Positions 11,061 to 51,730 of a DNA stretch of 64,000 nucleotides are shown one piece after another. Source of the DNA: Rhytidiadelphus loreus (taxonomy: Eukaryota > Streptophyta > Bryopsida > Hypnales > Hylocomiaceae); assembly GCA_947034895.1 (NCBI GenBank), contig OX344763.1, forward strand, positions 31,123,025 to 31,187,024, read 5' to 3'. Every line of letters starts with the position of its first letter. The stretch's first letter is position 1. The notes beneath the pieces are model-generated. The model did no database searches. It was not told the DNA's origin and worked only from the letters and a program-made list of their open reading frames with translations. The translations under genes were made by a program, and so were the position numbers.

Positions 11061-11971
11061 TCCTTAAAGGACGGAGGCCGTTTTTTGCCAAAAAACACTC
11101 AAAACTGCCATTCCTATTGCAAAGAGTTAAAAAAAATTAACATTCTTTTTCTGATCATCTAAGCATAGGATTCCATACCTAACTATTATGAGAACATGAG
11201 GAATAAATTTCAGAAATTTTGATTGCACAAATTGCAAAATATCTATGTTTAAAGTGAAAAAAAAAAAAAAATTGCACATTGTGGGTCTAGATTTTTGGAC
11301 TTTGACCTTTCTTAACTTAAATTTTTTGCACTACAAAGTTTTTAGGTTTAGATCTACATAGAAGAAAATTGAGTTGAGGGTCTAGGAAAAATATTATTTC
11401 AAAAAACTTAATTTTCATTCTTAAAAAAAATGTTAAGCAAAAGTAGGTACAAGATAGAAGGAAAATCTAAATTATTAATATCTCTAAGTTGCAATTAAAA
11501 GTCACTAATTCCAATAGTGAGATTGTTTTAGAAAGAAAACTAACCATTTAGAACTTCTTTTTTTAAATATTATGAAAATTTCATTCACAAATGAATCCTA
11601 CAAGTAATTTTTTCAAGAAGATGCTTACATTGTCCGAAAAAACAAGATTGTCCATAACTTTCATATCTTTTGTCCAAATGAAATGAATCAAATCTTCTCA
11701 AATAGATAAAAATATAATCTATGGAAAAAAAACTAAAAGATCAAAGATTCAAATTTTTGAAATTTTTGTTTGTTGATTAGTCTCCTTTTTTTAAAGCTTA
11801 TTTGGGCATAACTTTTGTTCCTGGGCACCAATTGAAATTCTTTTATTCCTATGAAGATAATCAATTTTTATATCATTAACAAAAATTCAGAATATCATGA
11901 CAAAAATTGAGACCGTAGGTACCAACCCGAAATTCAATTTGTCCCCTAAAGGAACATTGGTCTTTTAGGGG
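11061..11971. mobile_element. TTAA-flanked TIR element, copy B
   Basis: The element sits between TTAA at 11057-11060 and TTAA at 11972-11975. Read from the right it starts CCCCTAAAAGACCAATGT, matching the start of the copy at 50800. The whole 911 bp is similar, in reverse orientation, to 50800-51730. The terminal 35 bases are themselves palindromic (CCCCTAAA...TTTAGGGG). It has no coding frame. TTAA targets with CCC-type ends are what piggyBac elements show. Confidence 0.65.
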
Positions 11972-21350: not shown

Positions 21351-22531
21351 CCCCTAGATGATTTTGATGATGTTTTCACGAAAACTGCTCCAAAATTGCC
21401 ATTTGTAGGACATGTACCAAATTTTACAAAAAAAACATTTTTAGATATATGCAACCATAGGATCTTGTAGTACACTGGTTTTAGAAGATGTGGAATTTTT
21501 TTCAAAATCTTCCACTATATAGATTGCAAGATATTAGTGTTTGAAGTGACAAAAATCCTTTTTGGGCCCTACAAAAAAATGGGCAATTGCACTTCACAAG
21601 GTCACGTTTGTATGAAAAAATGTCCAAAATGGTGGTTGCTCTTTGGATTCCTACTTCAAAGCAAGTTGGCTACATGCTCAAAAAATTTCAGATCATTTGG
21701 AATTGTAGAACACGTAGGAAAAAATAATAAGTAGAAAGAAGTAAAGAATGATTCAAAATACTAAATTGTTAACGATTTATTTATGGAATTGAAAAATGCC
21801 AATCCCAGTGGTTGTCAATAATGTTGTAATAAACAATCTACACCTAATGTTTTTATTTTTTTCCAAAAATATTGAAAATTGAGTTAAATAAAGGACTTCA
21901 AATTTTGTCTTAGAATAGGGGTTCTCTAACTACATACAAACTACCCCAAACTAAAATTTCTCATAACTTTCATCTCATTAATCAAAATGGAATGATTCAA
22001 ATCTCTCCACATACATATAAATCTAGAGAATGAATTTCAAATTTTTATTTCTTAAAAAAGTGATTTTTAGAGAAGTTTTTTTTCTACATAGGCTACGCTC
22101 AGGGAGAATTGACCCCCTCATTGCCCCGGTCAACTTAGGTTTGAAAAAAAAGCCCCCTATGTTGTGCCAATTTTTTGGTAAGTCTTGCATCTCCTTAGAG
22201 TAATTTGGGGCCTGTGATTACAAATATGAATTCAGAATTTTTAAAAAAATTAAGCCTTGCAAATAAAAAATTCCAGGGTTTGCCCTGGAGGGGCAATGAG
22301 GGGGTCAATTCACCTTGGCCTTAGGCTACCTGTTGAGCAAAGAAAACTACATATCATACAATAACTTTTTAACCATGTAGTCAAAAGTTATAAAAAATTG
22401 TTGAGTCTTAAAGCTACTCCTCAGGCACATGTTTTGTGAAAATTTCAAAGCAAAAAAATAAAAACTCCATTAGTAGTGAATTGCCTAAAATTGCTATGTT
22501 GCCAAAAAAATGCAGTTTGAACATTTAGGGG
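21351..22531. mobile_element. TTAA-flanked TIR element, copy C (nested MITE inside)
   Basis: TTAA at 21347-21350 precedes CCCCTAGATG. The right end ATTTAGGGG precedes TCAA (22532-22535), a one-base decay of TTAA. The interior matches, in reverse, 42141-43025, and also 36400-37040 and 41735-41910 in part. A 225-bp hAT-like MITE interrupts it at 22097-22321. No coding frame. Confidence 0.6.
22097..22321. mobile_element. hAT-like MITE nested in TTAA copy C
   Basis: An 8-bp direct repeat TAGGCTAC flanks it (22089-22096 and 22322-22329). The ends share GAATTGACCCCCTCATTGCC in inverted orientation. Other copies of the host repeat (for example the complement of 42330-42345) lack this insert, giving an approximate empty site. 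Confidence 0.75.
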
Positions 22532-26679: not shown

Positions 26680-26977
26680 CAGGTCCATAAATTGACCATC
26701 TAAGAGCTAGAACTGATTTTGGGAGAGGTGAAACTTCTTGAAATTGATTTTTCAGTAAATTACCCTTGAAAGACAAGTGGAATTGGCATCTAACCCAAGT
26801 TGTTTCATATGTTTTGGAGCTTTTTGGAATTAGTTATAAAATTTTGAAGTTCAAATGCAATAGGCTCTAAAATCGCCCACCTCCTGAAATGTATACTATT
26901 TGTACATTGCTGATACCATGAAAAGGCAAAATGTACAAATAGTGTACATTTCAGGAGGTGGGCAATTTTAGAGCCTG
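26680..26977. mobile_element. Family R4 element with terminal hairpin, copy 3
   Basis: Ends CAGGTCCATAAATTGACC and, inward from the right, CAGGCTCTAAAATTGCCC are inverted repeats. The right third (26871-26977) is a near-perfect hairpin with arms of about 48 bases around an 11-base loop. A sister copy is at 55353-55656. I found no matching target duplication. Confidence 0.6.
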
Positions 26978-27833: not shown

Positions 27834-27896
27834 CACAGAGCTTCATTCTAGCATCACAGAGCTTCATTCTAGCATCACAGAGCTTCATTCTAGCAT
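27834..27896. repeat. 21-bp minisatellite, three perfect copies
   Basis: The unit CACAGAGCTTCATTCTAGCA+T occurs three times without change. Confidence 0.95.
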
Positions 27897-28453: not shown

Positions 28454-28458
28454 GTTTT

Positions 28459-28757
28459 TGTTGAACGACATTCGCAAAAGGCCTGCTCTGGCTTTACTTC
28501 ATCCAGGCTCGAACTCATCCGTTCTAGAAAACTAACGGTCCATAGATTAATCAGTAACTGAAATCCAAGTACTCACTAATGCAAGTTAGTGGCATCAATT
28601 ACAGGACTAGTGGCCTAGTAACTTGAACGTAATTGACTCAAGGAGAGGGCCGTAGAGCTGCCCCGGATCTTTGTATATATCGGTTCACTGTTTTATCGAT
28701 CTTATCTGAGCACTGACTCACTTTCCAATCTAGGAACTAGTTGAGTTTATTTCAACA
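28459..28757 (+). repeat. 5' LTR of the copia element
   Basis: 299 bases bounded by TG and CA. A TATA-like GTATATAT at 28673-28680 is a likely promoter core, so transcription would start some 25-30 bases further on. Confidence 0.95.
28673..28680 (+). promoter_or_regulatory. TATA-like box in the 5' LTR
   Basis: GTATATAT sits two thirds of the way into the LTR, the usual place for the U3 promoter. It is conserved in the 3' LTR. Confidence 0.5.
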
Positions 28758-28770
28758 TGGTATTAGAGCG
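28758..28770 (+). promoter_or_regulatory. Primer-binding site, initiator Met-tRNA type
   Basis: TGGTATTAGAGC follows the LTR directly. It differs at one base from TGGTATCAGAGC, the Met-tRNA-complementary site common in plant copia elements. Confidence 0.85.
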
Positions 28771-28987
28771 AGATTAACACTTTGCAGATGTAAGACTCAG
28801 AGTTTGAGAGGATTAGAGGTATCAAGTAAAGCACTGCTTCTGAGAGAGAGATACAACAAGAGAGAAATCTAGCGAGAGAGAGATCCAGTAGAGCACTGCT
28901 CTAGGACTTGCGAGAGAGAAAGCAGTTAGGAAGCTGACAACGAGAGACGAAGTAGAACGATTGTATCTGCTAGAAAGACAAGAAAAG

Positions 28988-29912
28988 ATGGCTGAGAATA
29001 TGAGCGTATCGTTCAGAGATAACGATAAATTAAAGGGACTGACAAGTGACAAACTACTATGTCTGGGCCCTTAAGATGCGAGCCATGCTTAGAGCAGAGG
29101 GACAATGGGCAATCACTGAAACCGTCCAAACACATGCAGCATTTCCGGTGACTATAGACGGTGAAGCATACACTGAGGGACAACTTAAGAGAAAGAGAGT
29201 ACTTGCATGTAGAATGATCTTGATGTCAATATGTGATGACCTCATCGATCTCGTAGCAGAACACACAGATCCTGTAGTAGTATGGAAAACCTTGAAAGAT
29301 CAGTTTCATTCTGGTGACCAGTCACAAATACTAACTTTCATGGGACAGCTGCAGTCGTTGCGCATGAATGAAGGAGGTGCAGTTGAAGACTACATAAAGA
29401 AGGCACGAGAGATCAAAAACCGATTGAGCAGCATGGGAGAAAGGATCACCGATCGCAACGTCAATCAGCTTGTGATGAATGGACTTCCACGCTCATACAA
29501 AAGCACCATACAGACTCTCGTGCATCTGGACCCATAAATGACGTTCGAGAAGCTGAGCTCGAACCTGATCTCAAAAGCACACCGCCGACAACATCGCAAC
29601 CAACAGCTTGGCGAAGAAGAAGCACTTGCAGCAGATCATCAGAAGCAGCCTACGCGAGGAAGAGGTGGTCGCTGACCACTCTATGGAAGGGGTCGAAGCT
29701 TTCCAGGAAGAAGTTTTGGATCGCCAAGACCACCACCGATATATTTCAACTATCAAAAGTTGGGTCATTTGGCAAGAGACTGCAAAGGTCTACGCAACCC
29801 GTACGCCTCTGCCAACCGAGGGCCTCCTAGGACCACTGGATATGCAAATTCAGCAAAATACTATGACTCACAGATAGACCATGATCCCCACTACTACTGG
29901 GGTCACGGACCA
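28988..29912 (+). pseudogene. gag: gag of the copia element (frameshift and stops)
   Basis: The ATG at 28988 opens gag, but a one-base excess in the A run at about 29051-29053 shifts the frame. The main part then reads NYYVWALKMRAMLRAEGQW and continues to a stop at 29535-29537, as in the UBN2/gag domain of plant copia elements. Coding resemblance continues, with another stop near 29670, to a nucleocapsid zinc knuckle at about 29743-29784. There the first two cysteines of C-x2-C-x4-H-x4-C are tyrosines, each one G-to-A change from cysteine, so the knuckle could not bind zinc. Gag would form the virus-like particle in the cytoplasm. Confidence 0.9.
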
Positions 29913-30270
29913 TGGTACATAGATAGTGGGGCTTCTAGCCACATCGCTGCCGATCCTCAGAAGCTAGATCATGCCCCAGGCCCCTCCGGTGTATAGATCG
30001 ATGAGATCAGAACCGGGGGAGGGGAATCACATGCAGTGAAAGGGACAAGCACGGCAACTGTAACTTCCGAAAATGGAGAAATAAAGCTAAAACCCGTTAA
30101 GTATGTGCCTAGTATGCGCAAGAACTTAGTCTCAGTAGGAGTAATTGTTGACGAAGGACACAAGGTCATGTTTGATAGCAAAAGTTGTCTAATCGTAGAC
30201 TCCAAGGATCATCTAGTCGCATCTAGAGAAAGGGATCCCTGGAATGGACTCTATTTTTTTAGAAACCAAG
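29913..30270 (+). pseudogene. pol: Aspartic protease of the copia element
   Basis: WYIDSGASSHIA at about 29913 contains the catalytic D-S-G-A of retroviral-type aspartic proteases (Asp codon 29922-29924). The same frame is stopped by TAG at 29994-29996, where the family normally has tryptophan, then continues with a conserved protease C-terminal part (YVPSMRKNLVSVG). The protease would release Gag and Pol products. The stop would leave it inactive. Confidence 0.9.
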
Positions 30271-31558
30271 CCAAACATCAGGGGATGGCATTGTCAACCG
30301 AAAGCAACAATCAAGCTATACTATGGCACCGCAGAATGGGCCACTTGAGTTATACTGGGTTGCAATTTTTATCCAAAACTTCAAACGTGATTGGACTCCC
30401 CAAATTAGGAATAGAAAAACAAACATGCCACTGCTGTCTAGTAGGGCACCAACATAGAGAAAGATTTCCTAGAAAGTCAGAAACCTGATCATCCAAGGTT
30501 GGACATTGAATCCACTCTGACTTAATGGGTCCCATGCAGCACGTATCATTAGGAGGCTCTAGATATGTCCTAGTATTTACCGATGATTACTCTAGGAAAA
30601 GTTAGACGTATTTCATGAAATGTAAAAGCGAAACCTTGACAAACTTCCAAAACTTTAAGAAACAGATAGAGACGGAAACTGGCAACAAACTACAGATCCT
30701 CCGATCCGACCGTGGAGGGAGTATACATCAACAGAATTCTCAACTTTCTGTAAAGAGAATGAGATTCAACGAGAACTCACACAGGCACTCACGCCACAGT
30801 AGAACGGAGTCTCAGAAAGAAGAAATAGAGCAATAATGGAGAGAGCTCGAAGTATGATCCACGACTACAAGCTGCCACTATGTCTCTGGTCGGAGGCAAT
30901 ATCACATGCAACGTACCTGATAAACCGCAGTCCAACTAGAGCCAACTCCGGACAAACACCAGAAGGCAAATATTCAGGTATCACTCCCGACATCTCCAAC
31001 CTTAGAATCTTTGGCTGTCTTGCACATGTTCACGTTCCAAAAGAGAGTCAAAAGAAGTTAGACAGCAAGTCTCAGAAATGTTTGTTCATGGATTTTGACA
31101 AAGAAACAAAAGCCTACCGTCTATACAATAGAACAAGAAAAAAGGTCATCATCAGTAGAGATGTAGTATTCAGCGAAGAGAAAGTCGGGTGTCATTACTT
31201 AGACCTTCCAGAACAAGAACCTAGCATCCTTGAATCTATTACAAATAGCAACCAGATTGACAAGGAGCATCAAGAACACCAACCAGAGTTCCCAGAGACA
31301 GATACAGAACCTCATGAGGAACAACCAGGTGTGACTGACCAAGTAGAGCCTCCGATACCCACAATCCTAAATCCTACATAAATTAGAAGGACCAACAGTA
31401 TAGACTCCAATCATGTGCCAGAATCAAGCCGATCTGATCACAATGCAAGACATCCAGTCCCTGTTGCTCGACAGGCTGGACCTACGAACCACAGATATCC
31501 AAGCCGTAGTAGGATACCATCCACGAGGCTGTGAGACTATTGGGCTCTATTTTCAGAG
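30271..31558 (+). pseudogene. pol: Integrase of the copia element
   Basis: The N-terminal zinc domain is visible as H-x3-H in HRRMGH and C-x2-C in CHCC. The catalytic triad follows: Asp in SDLMGP after 30510, Asp in ILRSDRGG near 30700, and Glu in NGVSER near 30810. Stops lie at 30486, about 30507, about 30604, about 30790, 31379 and 31532, and one extra base at about 30714-30720 shifts the frame. From 30836 a single frame resumes with LWSEAISHATYLINRSP. Integrase would join element DNA to the chromosome. Every stop is one C-to-T or G-to-A step from the codon the family normally shows. Confidence 0.9.
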
Positions 31559-32398
31559 TTGATGGAAGAACCATTAGATTTTAGCACAGCCTCAAATAAA
31601 AGGGAATGGAGGAAAGCTATTCAAAGCGAAATCGATTCCATCCAAAAAAACAAAATCTGGGAAGTGATAGACCGTCCAAAGGATAGAAAATCCATATCTG
31701 CAAAGTGGATTTTCAAAATAAAACGGGACTCCCAGGGAATTATAAACAAGTATAAAGCTAGGTTGGTGGCCCGAGGTTTCCAGCAGAAGGAAGGAGTTGA
31801 TTATCACGAGATCTTTGCACCTGTTGTTCGATGGTCCACAATTCGTATGATTTTGGCCCTAGCAGCAAAGTTCAACTGGCCCCTACACCAGATGAATGTG
31901 ATTACTGCTTTTCTAAATGGAAAGATAGATGAAGAAATACTTATGGAGATACCAGAAGGGTTTCCAGGAGCCAAAGACTACACGAAGGTATGTCGAATTA
32001 AGAGAGCATTGTACGGTCTGAAGCAATCTCCAAAGGCTTGGTATGATTGCATCGACACTTGGCTACACGAACAAGGACTAACTCAAAGTAACAACAACTC
32101 AAACTTATACTTCCTCCGGAGAGATAGGAAGATCACCATCCTACTGTTATACGTCGATGACCTTCTTATAACTAGAGACGATCAACAACAGATACTACAG
32201 CTGAAAGAAAAGCTTCACCAAGAATTTGAAATGACGGACCTAGGAGATGCGAGCAACTATCTAGGCGTAGAAATACACCAGAGGCAAGGTGGGATTTTCA
32301 TCAATCAAGCAGGTTACATCCGAAAACTTCTCCAGAAATTCAACATGGACAAATGCAACCCCACTAGAATTCCAACTGATCCAGATACCCCGTTGTAG
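31559..32398 (+). pseudogene. pol: Reverse transcriptase (RVT_2) of the copia element
   Basis: A 279-codon frame covers the copia reverse transcriptase: KARLVARGFQQKEGVDY, the substrate region, then YVDD at 32150-32161, the metal-binding motif C. In motif A the usual Q-M-D-V reads QMNV, with Asn encoded at 31895-31897, so the first catalytic aspartate is lost. The frame ends at TAG 32396-32398. The domain would copy the element RNA into DNA in the particle, but this copy should be dead even if the stops were read through. Confidence 0.95.
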
Positions 32399-33103
32399 AA
32401 AAACATGGGAACAATCAAAACGGACCAAATGGAATACTGCTTTTTGGTGGGAAGCTTACTCTTCGTCACTTACACGCGCCCTGACATCTGCTATGCAGTA
32501 AGTAGTGTCTCCAGATACATGCAAGAACCTGAGATAGCCCACTATCAAGCTGCAAAAAAAATTCTTCGGTATCTAAGCGGGACAATTGACCACGACATCT
32601 TTCTCTCTTCAGAAAATCTAGGTGATTATCATGCATACGCCGACGCTGACTGGGGACGTGACATAGACACTAGGAGATCGATCTCAGGCATTCTACACAA
32701 GATTGGAGACTCAACGGTACACTAGAGTAGCAAAATGCAGCCAGCGGTCTCGCTGTTAAGTACAAAGGCGGAGTATAGGGTCTTGACAGACGCAGCCAAA
32801 GACATCGTTTACTTTCGTAGATTGCTTCAAGAACTTGGATTTGACTCAGACAATCCAACCCAATTGCTCAGCGACAACCAATCATGCTTGAAACTTGTCA
32901 GGAACCCAGTCATGCACGTAAGAACGAAGCACATAGAGATTCAACATCACTTTATAAGGGAGGCTGCCAAAGCAGGAGCAATACAGGTGAACTATACACC
33001 AACAAACGACCAACTAGCTGATTTTCTTACAAAGCCTCTCCCTCACAAGAGCTTTGCCGCAAACCGACAGAAAGCAGGTGTTGTACCATTTTCTCTTATT
33101 TAA
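32399..33103 (+). pseudogene. pol: RNase H domain and 3' end of copia pol
   Basis: In the same frame as the reverse transcriptase, the RNase H shows acidic residues in YADADW, STKAEY and LLSDNQSC, then HIEIQHHFIRE near the end. A TAG at 32723-32725 stands where the family has Trp in SWSSK. The final stop is at 33101-33103. RNase H would remove RNA from the RNA-DNA hybrid during copying. Confidence 0.92.
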
Positions 33104-33683
33104 ATTTGAAATTTGACACGCACCCAATCTGGGGTGTACGCATTGTCTAACCACAGGTCTCTATTCGAAATGCGATGTTTGAAGTCCGTTGCCCTCGGGT
33201 TCTTCTTCACACCACGATTGTCCCACCAAGCAGAAGGGTTATCGGCAAGATCTCTCCAATGCATCTCTGTTGTTGTCCTAGCATTCTCTCTCGAAGCCCT
33301 AGAAACACCGCACCTCGGGGCAGTACAAGTCTTGGACTCCGACTCAACTCGAACCTCCTCGACCTGACGCTGAAATAGAAACCAGACATACACAAACGCC
33401 TCCAACAGATTCTCGCACACACGTTGGATCGAAATCACCAGGAGCCACATTGTAAGGAGGATTATTTGAACCTGGACACTCGACACCAATCACTTTCAGG
33501 AATAAGAAGAATGAAGTAAGAAAGAAACCAAACAAGAAATCGATTGCGCAACTCACCAACGACATTTGGCGCACGAAGTCCCTAAAAATGTGAACTGCCT
33601 CAGTCGAAAGCATCGGGAAACACGACATACTGAAAACAAAACTCAACAAAATTAGTTTTTTAGAAAATAGGGCCTTTGCGACT
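33104..33683 (-). pseudogene. Captured antisense fragment of an OSB (organellar ssDNA-binding) gene
   Basis: On the minus strand 33369-33104 reads MHWRDLADNPSAWWDNR, then TDFKHR, then LWLDN and TPDWV. This is the PDF motif of plant OSB proteins, W-x2-L-x2-N-P-x2-W-W-D-N-R followed by P-D-F-K-H-K and L-W. OSB proteins bind single-stranded DNA in plastids and mitochondria. Splice-like sites remain: an acceptor TTTCTATTTCAG before 33369 and a GTGAGT donor at 33556-33551. That suggests the fragment came in as unspliced or genomic sequence. It lies inside the element, between the pol stop and the polypurine tract, opposite to transcription of the element. It has no start codon of its own and lacks the OB-fold, so it is a partial copy. 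Confidence 0.8.
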
Positions 33684-33692
33684 GAAGGGGGG
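33684..33692 (+). promoter_or_regulatory. Polypurine tract of the copia element
   Basis: GAAGGGGGG abuts the 3' LTR, the place where plus-strand DNA synthesis is primed. Confidence 0.85.
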
Positions 33693-33991
33693 TGTTGAAC
33701 GACATTCGCAAAAGGCCTGCTCTGGCTTTACTTCATCCAAACTCGAACTCATCCGTTCTAGAAAACTAATGGTCCATAGATTAATCAGTAACTGAAATCC
33801 AAATACTCACTAGTGCAAGTTAGTGGCATCAGTTACAGGACTAGTGGCCTAATAACTTGAACGTAACTGACTCAAGGAGAGGGCCGTAGAGTTGCCCCGG
33901 ATCTCTGTATATATCGGTTCACTGTTTTATCGATCTTATATGAGCACTGACTCACTTTCCAATCTAGGAACTAATTGAGTTTATTTCAACA
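33693..33991 (+). repeat. 3' LTR of the copia element
   Basis: 299 bases, the same length as the 5' LTR, ending TTTCAACA and followed by the GTTTT target duplication. Confidence 0.95.
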
Positions 33992-33996
33992 GTTTT

Positions 33997-42140: not shown

Positions 42141-43025
42141 CCCCTTGCGGACTACACAATGTTTTTTTTAGCAACATAGCGGTTTTGAACAACTCATTCT
42201 AAATGAAAAAAAAAATTCTTTGAAATTTTCATACAATATGTGCCCGAGGAGTAGCTTTAATGCACAAAAAAATTCATAACTTTTGATTACATGGTTTAAA
42301 AGTTATTGTATGATATGTAATTTTCAACAATATGTAGGCAATTTGGGCAATTAAAAAAAAATCTTTTTTAAGAAATTAAAAATTGAAATTATTTTTCTAA
42401 ATTTATATGTATATGAAAAGCTTTGAATCATTCCATTTTGATTTAATGAGATAAAAGTTATGAGGAGTTTTAGTTTGTGGGTAGTTTGAAGTCTTTTATT
42501 TAACTCAATTTTCAATATTTTTTGAAAAAAATAAAATCATAGAATGTAGATTATTTATTACAACATTATAACCCTTGGAATTGACATTTTTCAATTCCAT
42601 AACTAAATTCTCAACAATTTAATATTTTAAATCATTTTCTACCTCTTTCTACTTATTATTTTTTCTTATATGTTGTACAATTTGAAATGATCTTAGAATT
42701 TTTAACTATGTAGCCAACTTGCCTTGCCAAAGAAGCAACACCATTTGAGACATTTTTTCATACAAATGTGACCTTGTGAAGTGCAACTACCCATTTTTTC
42801 AGAAGGCCAAAAAAAAAGATTTTTGTCACTTCAAATGCTTATATCTCATAGTCTACACGGTGGAAATTTCTGAAAAATTTTCTACATCTTTTCAAACTAA
42901 TGTATTACAAGATCCTACAGTTGCATGTGTTCAAAAATGTATTTTTTTCTAAAATTTGGTACTTGTACTAGAAATGACAGTTTTTGAATGTTTTTGGTGA
43001 AAACATAGTCAAATACCTTTAGGGG
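42141..43025. mobile_element. TTAA-flanked TIR element, copy F (inverted)
   Basis: TTAA flanks both sides (42137-42140 and 43026-43029). The left end is CCCCTTGCGG and the right end CCTTTAGGGG. The 885 bp are the reverse complement of copy C without its MITE. Its orientation is opposite to copy E next to it, so the pair forms an inverted repeat of about 170 bases per arm. Confidence 0.65.
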
Positions 43026-50799: not shown

Positions 50800-51730
50800 C
50801 CCCTAAAGGACCATTGTCCCTTTGGGGGACAAATGCGCTTTCAGGCAAGTACCTACAGGCTGAAATTTTCTCCTAATTTTTTGAAATTTTATTTGGAGGT
50901 AGGAAAGTTGATTAGCTTCGTGGGAATATAATTTTTTTCAAAATCGGTGCCCGGGAACAATAGTTATGACCAAATAAGCTCAAACGAGGGGACGGCGGGC
51001 ACCGTGGGCAGCCCCCCCAAAATGGACAAAAATTAGAACTTTTTTTTAATATTATTTTCTCTCATAGATTATATTTTTGTCTATCTGGGAAGTTTTGATT
51101 CATTTCATTTGGATATGTCATGAAAAAGTTATGGACATTCTTATTTTTCGGGCAATTAGAGCATCTTTTTGAAAAAATAACTTGTAGGATTCATTTCTGA
51201 ATGCAATTTTTCAAATTTTTCAATTTTTTTTTAATGGTCTGATTTACTTGCTAGAACAATCTCACCATTAGGATTAGTGCATTTTAATTCCATCTAAAAT
51301 ATATGAATATTTTAGATTTTCCTTCTATCTCATACCTACTTCTACTTAACAATTTTTTTAAGAATGATAATTAAATTTTTTTTGAATTTTTTTTACCAAG
51401 ACTCTCAACTCAATTCTCCACTATAAAGATTTAAAGCTCAAAACTTTGTAGTGCAAAAATTTTAAGTTAAAAATGTTCAAAGTCAAAAAAATCTAGTCCC
51501 GCAATGTGATGAAAAACTTGTTTTTTCCACTTTAAACGCAGATATCTTGCAATCCGAGCGGTGAAAAATTCTGAATTTTTTTTCACGCACTCTCATACTA
51601 GTTAGGTGTAAGATCCTACGGTTAGATATGGAAAGAAAATCAATTTCTTAATTTTTTTTACTCCTTGCTATAGGTATGGCAGTTTTGAGTGTTTTCTGGC
51701 AAAGAAAAAAAGGCCTTGGTCCTTTAGGGG
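50800..51730. mobile_element. TTAA-flanked TIR element, copy A
   Basis: The best preserved member: TTAA at 50796-50799 and 51731-51734, a left end CCCCTAAAGGACCATTGTCC and a right end CCTTGGTCCTTTAGGGG. Bases beyond the TTAA do not match, which makes TTAA the target duplication rather than part of the TIR. It is 931 bp, AT-rich and has no frame. Copy B is its inverted relative. Confidence 0.75.

Follow-up and report, generated by a model that had tools for sequence, protein, structure and literature searches.

An antisense fragment of probable OSB-gene origin carried by a Ty1/copia retrotransposon in Rhytidiadelphus loreus

Introduction

In the moss Rhytidiadelphus loreus, 580 bases lying between pol and the polypurine tract of a copia retrotransposon read, on the strand antisense to the element, like the end of a gene for an organellar single-stranded DNA-binding (OSB) protein. 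The locus raises the question of whether this segment is a piece of a host gene captured by the element, by which route it may have entered, and whether its reading frame is under selection. The original prediction for this DNA, made from the 64,000 nucleotides of the whole stretch analysed (the window), described an uncommon capture in which the splice sites had been kept, and proposed entry as unspliced or genomic sequence.

Plant LTR elements are already known to capture genes, and commonly do so. According to the available text of the respective reports, 672 cases have been counted for rice and 1,343 for sorghum (PMC3726574), and between 1,398 (rice) and 3,898 (potato) genes were found inside LTR elements in a comparison of six plant species (PMC5664825). 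The plant OSB proteins are described, in the accessible parts of two reports, as having an SSB-like domain followed, at the C terminus, by between one and three PDF motifs of ~50 residues, the motif being named for Pro, Asp and Phe (PMC6963530, PMC4166229).

Results

Anatomy of the element

The element at 28459-33991 is a 5.5-kb Ty1/copia retrotransposon with an LTR pair, a primer-binding-site-like sequence, a polypurine tract and a flanking duplication (Table 1). The assignment to copia follows from the structure, i.e. paired LTRs with TG...CA ends and a 5-bp duplication, as well as from the ordered domains Retrotran_gag_2, gag_pre-integrs, SH3_retrovirus and RVT_2, with the integrase-side domains placed before the reverse transcriptase. 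The primer-binding-site-like sequence resembles, and presumably represents, the initiator-tRNA-Met site found in copia elements of plants, and the last pol frame is taken to be the RNase H end, as judged by motifs; the two last pol frames of the element matched no Pfam family. No close relatives of the reverse transcriptase were found in viral contigs (2 pattern matches, none confirmed), and neither tRNA genes nor Rfam families were detected in the window. The two LTRs differ at 12 of 299 sites, with 11 of the changes being transitions, corresponding to a K2P distance of 0.0417. At an assumed rate of 1.3e-8 substitutions per site and year the insertion would be ~1.6 million years old, and at one of 7e-9 ~3.0 million. 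The gag-pol frame is interrupted, and this copy of the element is consequently probably defective.

Table 1 Features of the copia element, its antisense segment and the further genomic copies of the segment
Feature	Position	Strand	Remarks
Target-site duplication GTTTT, left	28454..28458	.	identical 5 bases at 33992-33996
5' LTR, 299 nt, TG...CA	28459..28757	+	96% identity to 3' LTR
Primer-binding-site-like TGGTATTAGAGC	28758..28769	+	immediately 3' of 5' LTR
gag piece	29046..29537	+	Pfam Retrotran_gag_2, E 8.1e-23
GAG-pre-integrase and Pol beta-barrel piece	30036..30488	+	Pfam gag_pre-integrs, E 2e-13; Pol_BBD, E 4.3e-06
Retroviral-polymerase SH3-like piece	30836..31381	+	Pfam SH3_retrovirus, E 1e-28
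Copia-type reverse transcriptase	31559..32398	+	Pfam RVT_2, E 3e-80
Last pol frame	32735..33103	+	stop 33101-33103; 0 Pfam families
Putatively captured segment, 580 bases between pol and polypurine tract	33104..33683	- (antisense to element)	both ends approximate; 3 genomic copies, same place in each
Open frame, 88 codons, with OSB-like PDF motif	33103..33366	-	ends in WWDNRGVKKNPRATDFKHRISNRDLWLDNAYTPDWVRVKFQI
PDF motif core WWDNRGVKKNPRATDFKHRISNRDLWLDNAYTPDW	33124..33228	-	pattern found once in window, never in 60 shuffled windows
Acceptor-like TTTCAG	33370..33375	-	window's copy only; TTTCAA in both other copies
Donor-like GTGAGT	33551..33556	-	common to all three copies
Second acceptor-like TTTCAG, after T-rich tract	33630..33635	-	common to all three copies
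Polypurine tract GAAGGGGGG	33684..33692	+	adjoins 3' LTR start at 33693
3' LTR, 299 nt	33693..33991	+	96% identity to 5' LTR
Target-site duplication GTTTT, right	33992..33996	.	matches left copy
Copy B of the segment	C2:47713359-47713941		92% identity, all 580 bases matched
Copy C of the segment	C1:69924783-69925368		91% identity, all 580 bases matched

A short two-block inverted match (33651-33770) was observed between the bases preceding the polypurine tract and the start of the 3' LTR. It was equalled in none of 1000 shuffles and in none of 1204 pieces of the window, these comparisons having been chosen after the match was seen. Two of the three element copies have the first block unchanged, the second fits only the LTR of the window's element well and those of the other two copies less so, and the RNA fold of the region is unexceptional, as 10 of 200 shuffles fold equally well; on the latter two grounds no weight is placed on this inverted LTR-like stretch. 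Likewise, a GA-rich gapped match between the segment and the leader of the element (0 of 300 shuffles) was dismissed by judgement.

The window also contains several repeats outside the element. A 21-nt unit is present in three perfect head-to-tail copies at 27834-27896, ~560 bases upstream of the element, and a MITE-like hairpin at 26862-26976 is formed by a 47-nt inverted repeat, 96% complementary, with its arms 21 nt apart. A further inverted repeat at 480-847 has 60-nt arms, 95% complementary, at a spacing of 248 nt. The stretches 21419-22068 and 42355-42956 form a long dispersed inverted repeat pair, with pieces 77-91% alike, to which the pair 11292-11731 and 51055-51490 is similar, and a dispersed family of ~116-nt repeats has four copies (14762, 17405, 26749 and 55424), 64-86% alike to the reference copy.

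An OSB-like motif on the minus strand

The four words on which the OSB assignment had originally been based (WWDNR, DFKH, LWLDN and PDWV) were all recovered in a single minus-strand frame, at the position and in the orientation claimed. They were combined into a PDF pattern, which drew on the detailed residue spacing within the motif and was built after the sequence had been seen. Among the six frames of the window the combined pattern matched once, as compared with no match in 60 dinucleotide-shuffled windows; of the single-word controls, WWDNR occurred once in the window and not in the shuffled windows, and DFKH twice as against 24 times. As defined by this pattern, the frame holds a motif of the PDF type, reading Thr-Asp-Phe in the window and Pro-Asp-Phe elsewhere: the window has ATDFKH, and two further genomic copies of the segment (copies B and C, see below) have APDFKH. 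These copies were not used for the pattern, and their APDFKH provides the best independent support for reading the frame as OSB-like. The strict pattern fails in copy B (WWDNG) and in copy C (LCLDN), and matches both when relaxed at these places. The similarity could in principle be an accident, considering that the pattern was written with the sequence in view and that no profile matched; the unmatched shuffled windows and the Pro of Pro-Asp-Phe in both other copies make such a coincidence hardly credible.

The profile search itself was negative, in that neither Pfam nor NCBIfam returned a family for the PDF frame, although the libraries used gave no PDF profile. The assignment to the OSB family, which such a search had been expected to settle, thus draws instead on the motif pattern and on APDFKH. 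The search of the PDB gave a single chance-level match (E 0.83), the 22 pattern matches in viral contigs and 276 in prokaryote genomes included no confirmed relative of the frame, and plasmids gave none. A single-sequence structure prediction of the 88 residues was uninformative (mean pLDDT 36.8). Furthermore, the SSB-like OB domain that precedes the motif in OSB proteins was not recognised, with no Pfam family in a 129-aa frame and no NCBIfam family in either this or an overlapping 127-aa frame. Given that no OB domain was recognised in either frame, the segment appears to be only a fragment of an OSB gene. No origin was recognised for the stretch that lies upstream of the PDF frame (33370-33683).

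Copies of the segment elsewhere in the genome

A search with the segment in the window's own genome (407 Mb, 489 contigs), in which counts are lower bounds, revealed at least three copies on three contigs, the window's own included, these being all the candidates of its first pass, each of which was scored. Further element copies with the fragment, for which a search had been proposed, do therefore exist on the C2 and C1 contigs. Each copy of the segment occupies the same place in a complete or almost complete copy of this element: the elements of copies B and C align to that of the window (blastn) over 5,510 and 5,552 columns, respectively, at 93.5% identity, with the alignments ending at or near the LTR edges. 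The flanks of one of these two loci (L004) gave two short matches to the whole window (46 and 34 bases, E 0.001) at unrelated places, those of the other (L005) gave none, and the similarity of the two loci to each other is confined to the element. Copy C has its own target duplication, AATTA, and an LTR divergence of 0.0276. In copy B the LTR divergence is 0.0505 over 269 sites, and the first 29 bases of the 5' LTR are missing, which precludes a check of its duplication. At least two insertions with different duplications (GTTTT and AATTA) carry the segment, and consequently it travels with the element. It lies inside the element and has moved with it, i.e. it is retrotransposed cargo and not a one-off.

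The three copies were found by means of the segment itself, and its presence in 3/3 is thus uninformative on its frequency within the element family. With the element being one of at least three, only the capture event, not the copy, could be called uncommon, as the original prediction had done. The only matches in this DNA search were the three element copies, with no donor OSB locus among them. In combination, the motif, the anatomy and the three copies within elements point to capture of an OSB-type fragment in antisense by a copia element, albeit one with no match to an OSB family in Pfam or NCBIfam. We infer that the segment was captured within this copia family, as against lost elsewhere. 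It is probable, in our judgement, that the element acquired an OSB-type piece in antisense once, that this was spread by retrotransposition, and that the piece is now unconstrained; the judgement covers capture, spread and lack of constraint jointly and does not extend to the route.

Coding constraint and divergence

In copy B the 88-codon frame is broken by a stop ten codons ahead of WWDNR; the window's frame and that of copy C are open. In simulations at 2% random substitution, 77% of the frames remained open, so that the open frame in the window says little. Among changed codons, nonsynonymous changes make up 12/16 (window-B), 12/17 (window-C) and 4/5 (B-C), to be compared with 71% expected without constraint. 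The divergence of the segment, for the same three comparisons, is 0.074, 0.074 and 0.028, that of pol 0.058, 0.057 and 0.035, and that of gag 0.036, 0.054 and 0.025; the segment has accordingly changed faster than pol between the window's copy and either of the others, and more slowly than pol between B and C. Within the segment, the PDF part (0.068, 0.068 and 0.023) has diverged a little less than the remainder (0.076, 0.072 and 0.029), and the 3' LTR (0.130, 0.106 and 0.053) is faster than the segment.

These data bear on the possibility that the frame is a conserved antisense aORF, kept under selection. Its place and orientation are those of known antisense aORFs (PMC7264820), of which, in the available text, Retand TRP28 probably binds DNA (PMC11963269) and the ORF of PvRetro13 contains an SMC domain that is described as binding DNA (PMC7264820). 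The segment was present in every copy found, though found by the segment itself, and the open frame in two of three copies, the slow segment between B and C, the slower PDF part and the faster LTRs are all points against a lack of constraint. Still, with a stop in copy B, a nonsynonymous share at the neutral expectation, a segment faster than pol wherever the window's copy is involved, a frame of just 88 codons and no recognised OB domain, we regard selection on the frame as very unlikely, as far as three copies allow. Because no coding constraint was detected on the reading frame in these copies, the segment is most likely a neutral passenger at present.

Splice-like words and the route of capture

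The claim that splice sites had been kept holds for the donor-like GTGAGT, and fails for TTTCAG in two of the three copies (Table 1); a GTRAGT-to-TTTCAG pair at intron-like spacing also arose when the segment was shuffled, in 140 of 2000 trials. Entry as unspliced or genomic sequence, which had been deduced from these sites, is hence not secured, the acceptor being absent from two copies. Plant introns are T-rich, and the T content of the minus strand is 0.40 between the splice words versus 0.23 in the PDF part (the cuts, at 33366/33367 and 33557/33558, miss the splice words by a few bases), making an intron within the segment possible. In the antisense orientation the RNA of the element cannot splice an intron, which consequently stays once it is in. 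The intron would also be present in an RNA antisense to the OSB gene, so that a retained intron does not single out genomic DNA, and kept introns alone do not separate RNA from DNA capture. A fragment derived from spliced mRNA, with the splice-like words arising by chance, would fit the missing acceptor, the frequency of such pairs in shuffles and the fact that the window's frame is open for 40 codons upstream of the supposed acceptor. However, the T-rich composition upstream of the PDF part resembles that of plant introns and 0 families indicative of OB-domain coding were recognised in that part, leaving this origin rather improbable.

The orientation of the segment provides a further constraint on the route. 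During LTR reverse transcription, a switch to host mRNA in minus-strand synthesis yields a piece in sense to gag-pol, and for a piece to end up in antisense, the template must be an antisense RNA, the switch must occur in plus-strand synthesis, or DNA must be inserted. Genomic DNA could have entered one element copy by end-joining or nested insertion and been spread later by retrotransposition. Such an entry would easily account for the antisense orientation and the possible intron, and a donor-like as well as an acceptor-like word is common to all three copies, but the approximate borders of the segment share just two 7-base matches, one of them direct and the other inverted (no control run). 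A nested transposon was rejected on the basis of these same matches, which give no clear sign of one, and entry of genomic DNA by either means is considered unlikely, if less so than the spliced-mRNA origin.

Of the routes considered, we infer capture from antisense RNA with template switching to be the most likely, ranking it first, and DNA insertion second; the first is itself a tentative choice, somewhat short of an even chance. Abnormal template switching is a described route for plant LTR elements, according to the available text of one report (PMC13317346). In a single event the element would have gained part of a host OSB-type gene, placed in antisense between pol and the polypurine tract, the piece comprising the last, PDF-coding exon together with adjoining, possibly intronic sequence. 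An element transcript or other antisense RNA across the OSB gene, e.g. read-through transcription out of an element oriented opposite to that gene, would have been packaged, with the reverse transcriptase switching onto it and back. Ordinary retrotransposition could then have copied the element to give at least three insertions with the same piece in the same place. Antisense RNA would explain the orientation and any retained intron alike, because the splice signals would be on the other strand.

Discussion

The segment represents gene capture of a known kind, in an unusual, antisense orientation. As in maize Bs1 and the captures in rice and sorghum, insofar as the sources cover them, a piece of a probable host gene is held in an LTR element and copied by retrotransposition; here, conversely, it is antisense to gag-pol, comprises the PDF end only, and may retain an intron. 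In position and orientation, the segment is similar to the antisense aORFs between pol and 3' LTR known as Grande gene23, RIRE2, Retand TRP28 and PvRetro13 (PMC7264820, PMC11963269). The available text of a 2020 review describes no clear similarity of antisense aORFs to other proteins, apart from the SMC domain in PvRetro13 (PMC7264820), and the antisense ORFs of Retand are reported to carry the TRP28 domain (PMC11963269). Whereas these four, in the same partial sources, are kept as ORFs, the present frame is broken in one of three copies, and it differs from them also in having a recognisable host-like motif and in belonging to a copia element. With plant OSB proteins it shares a PDF-type motif at the end of the coding frame (PMC6963530, PMC4166229, in their accessible parts), unlike which it has neither a recognised SSB-like OB domain nor a frame intact in all copies. 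Orchid Gypsy elements with an m6A RNA demethylase domain are likewise plant LTR elements with an added ORF, the domain of which has cellular relatives (PMC9289625). That domain is reported, in the title, as functional, and is fixed in its lineage (PMC9289625), in contrast to the segment described here, for which no constraint was detected. Within partial literature coverage, no publication was found that joins 'organellar single-stranded DNA-binding' and 'retrotransposon'. The case thus appears to join two known phenomena, antisense position and recognisable host-like content, in a copia element.

One conceivable consequence would be that antisense RNA of a living OSB gene is produced when the element family is transcribed in sense, and that small RNAs thereby tune OSB and the recombination of mitochondrial DNA. 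We give this only a very slim chance; if true, a retrotransposon would hold a lever on the stability of an organelle genome. The locus also offers a small, clear case of antisense cargo, of apparently recognisable origin, in a family of copia elements of which several copies can be dated, and its direction bears on the mechanism of capture. Switching to sense mRNA in minus-strand synthesis predicts sense cargo, and antisense captures with introns would consequently point to antisense RNA or DNA as the source. Cargo orientation together with intron content, compared across many captured genes, would provide a test of such an origin.
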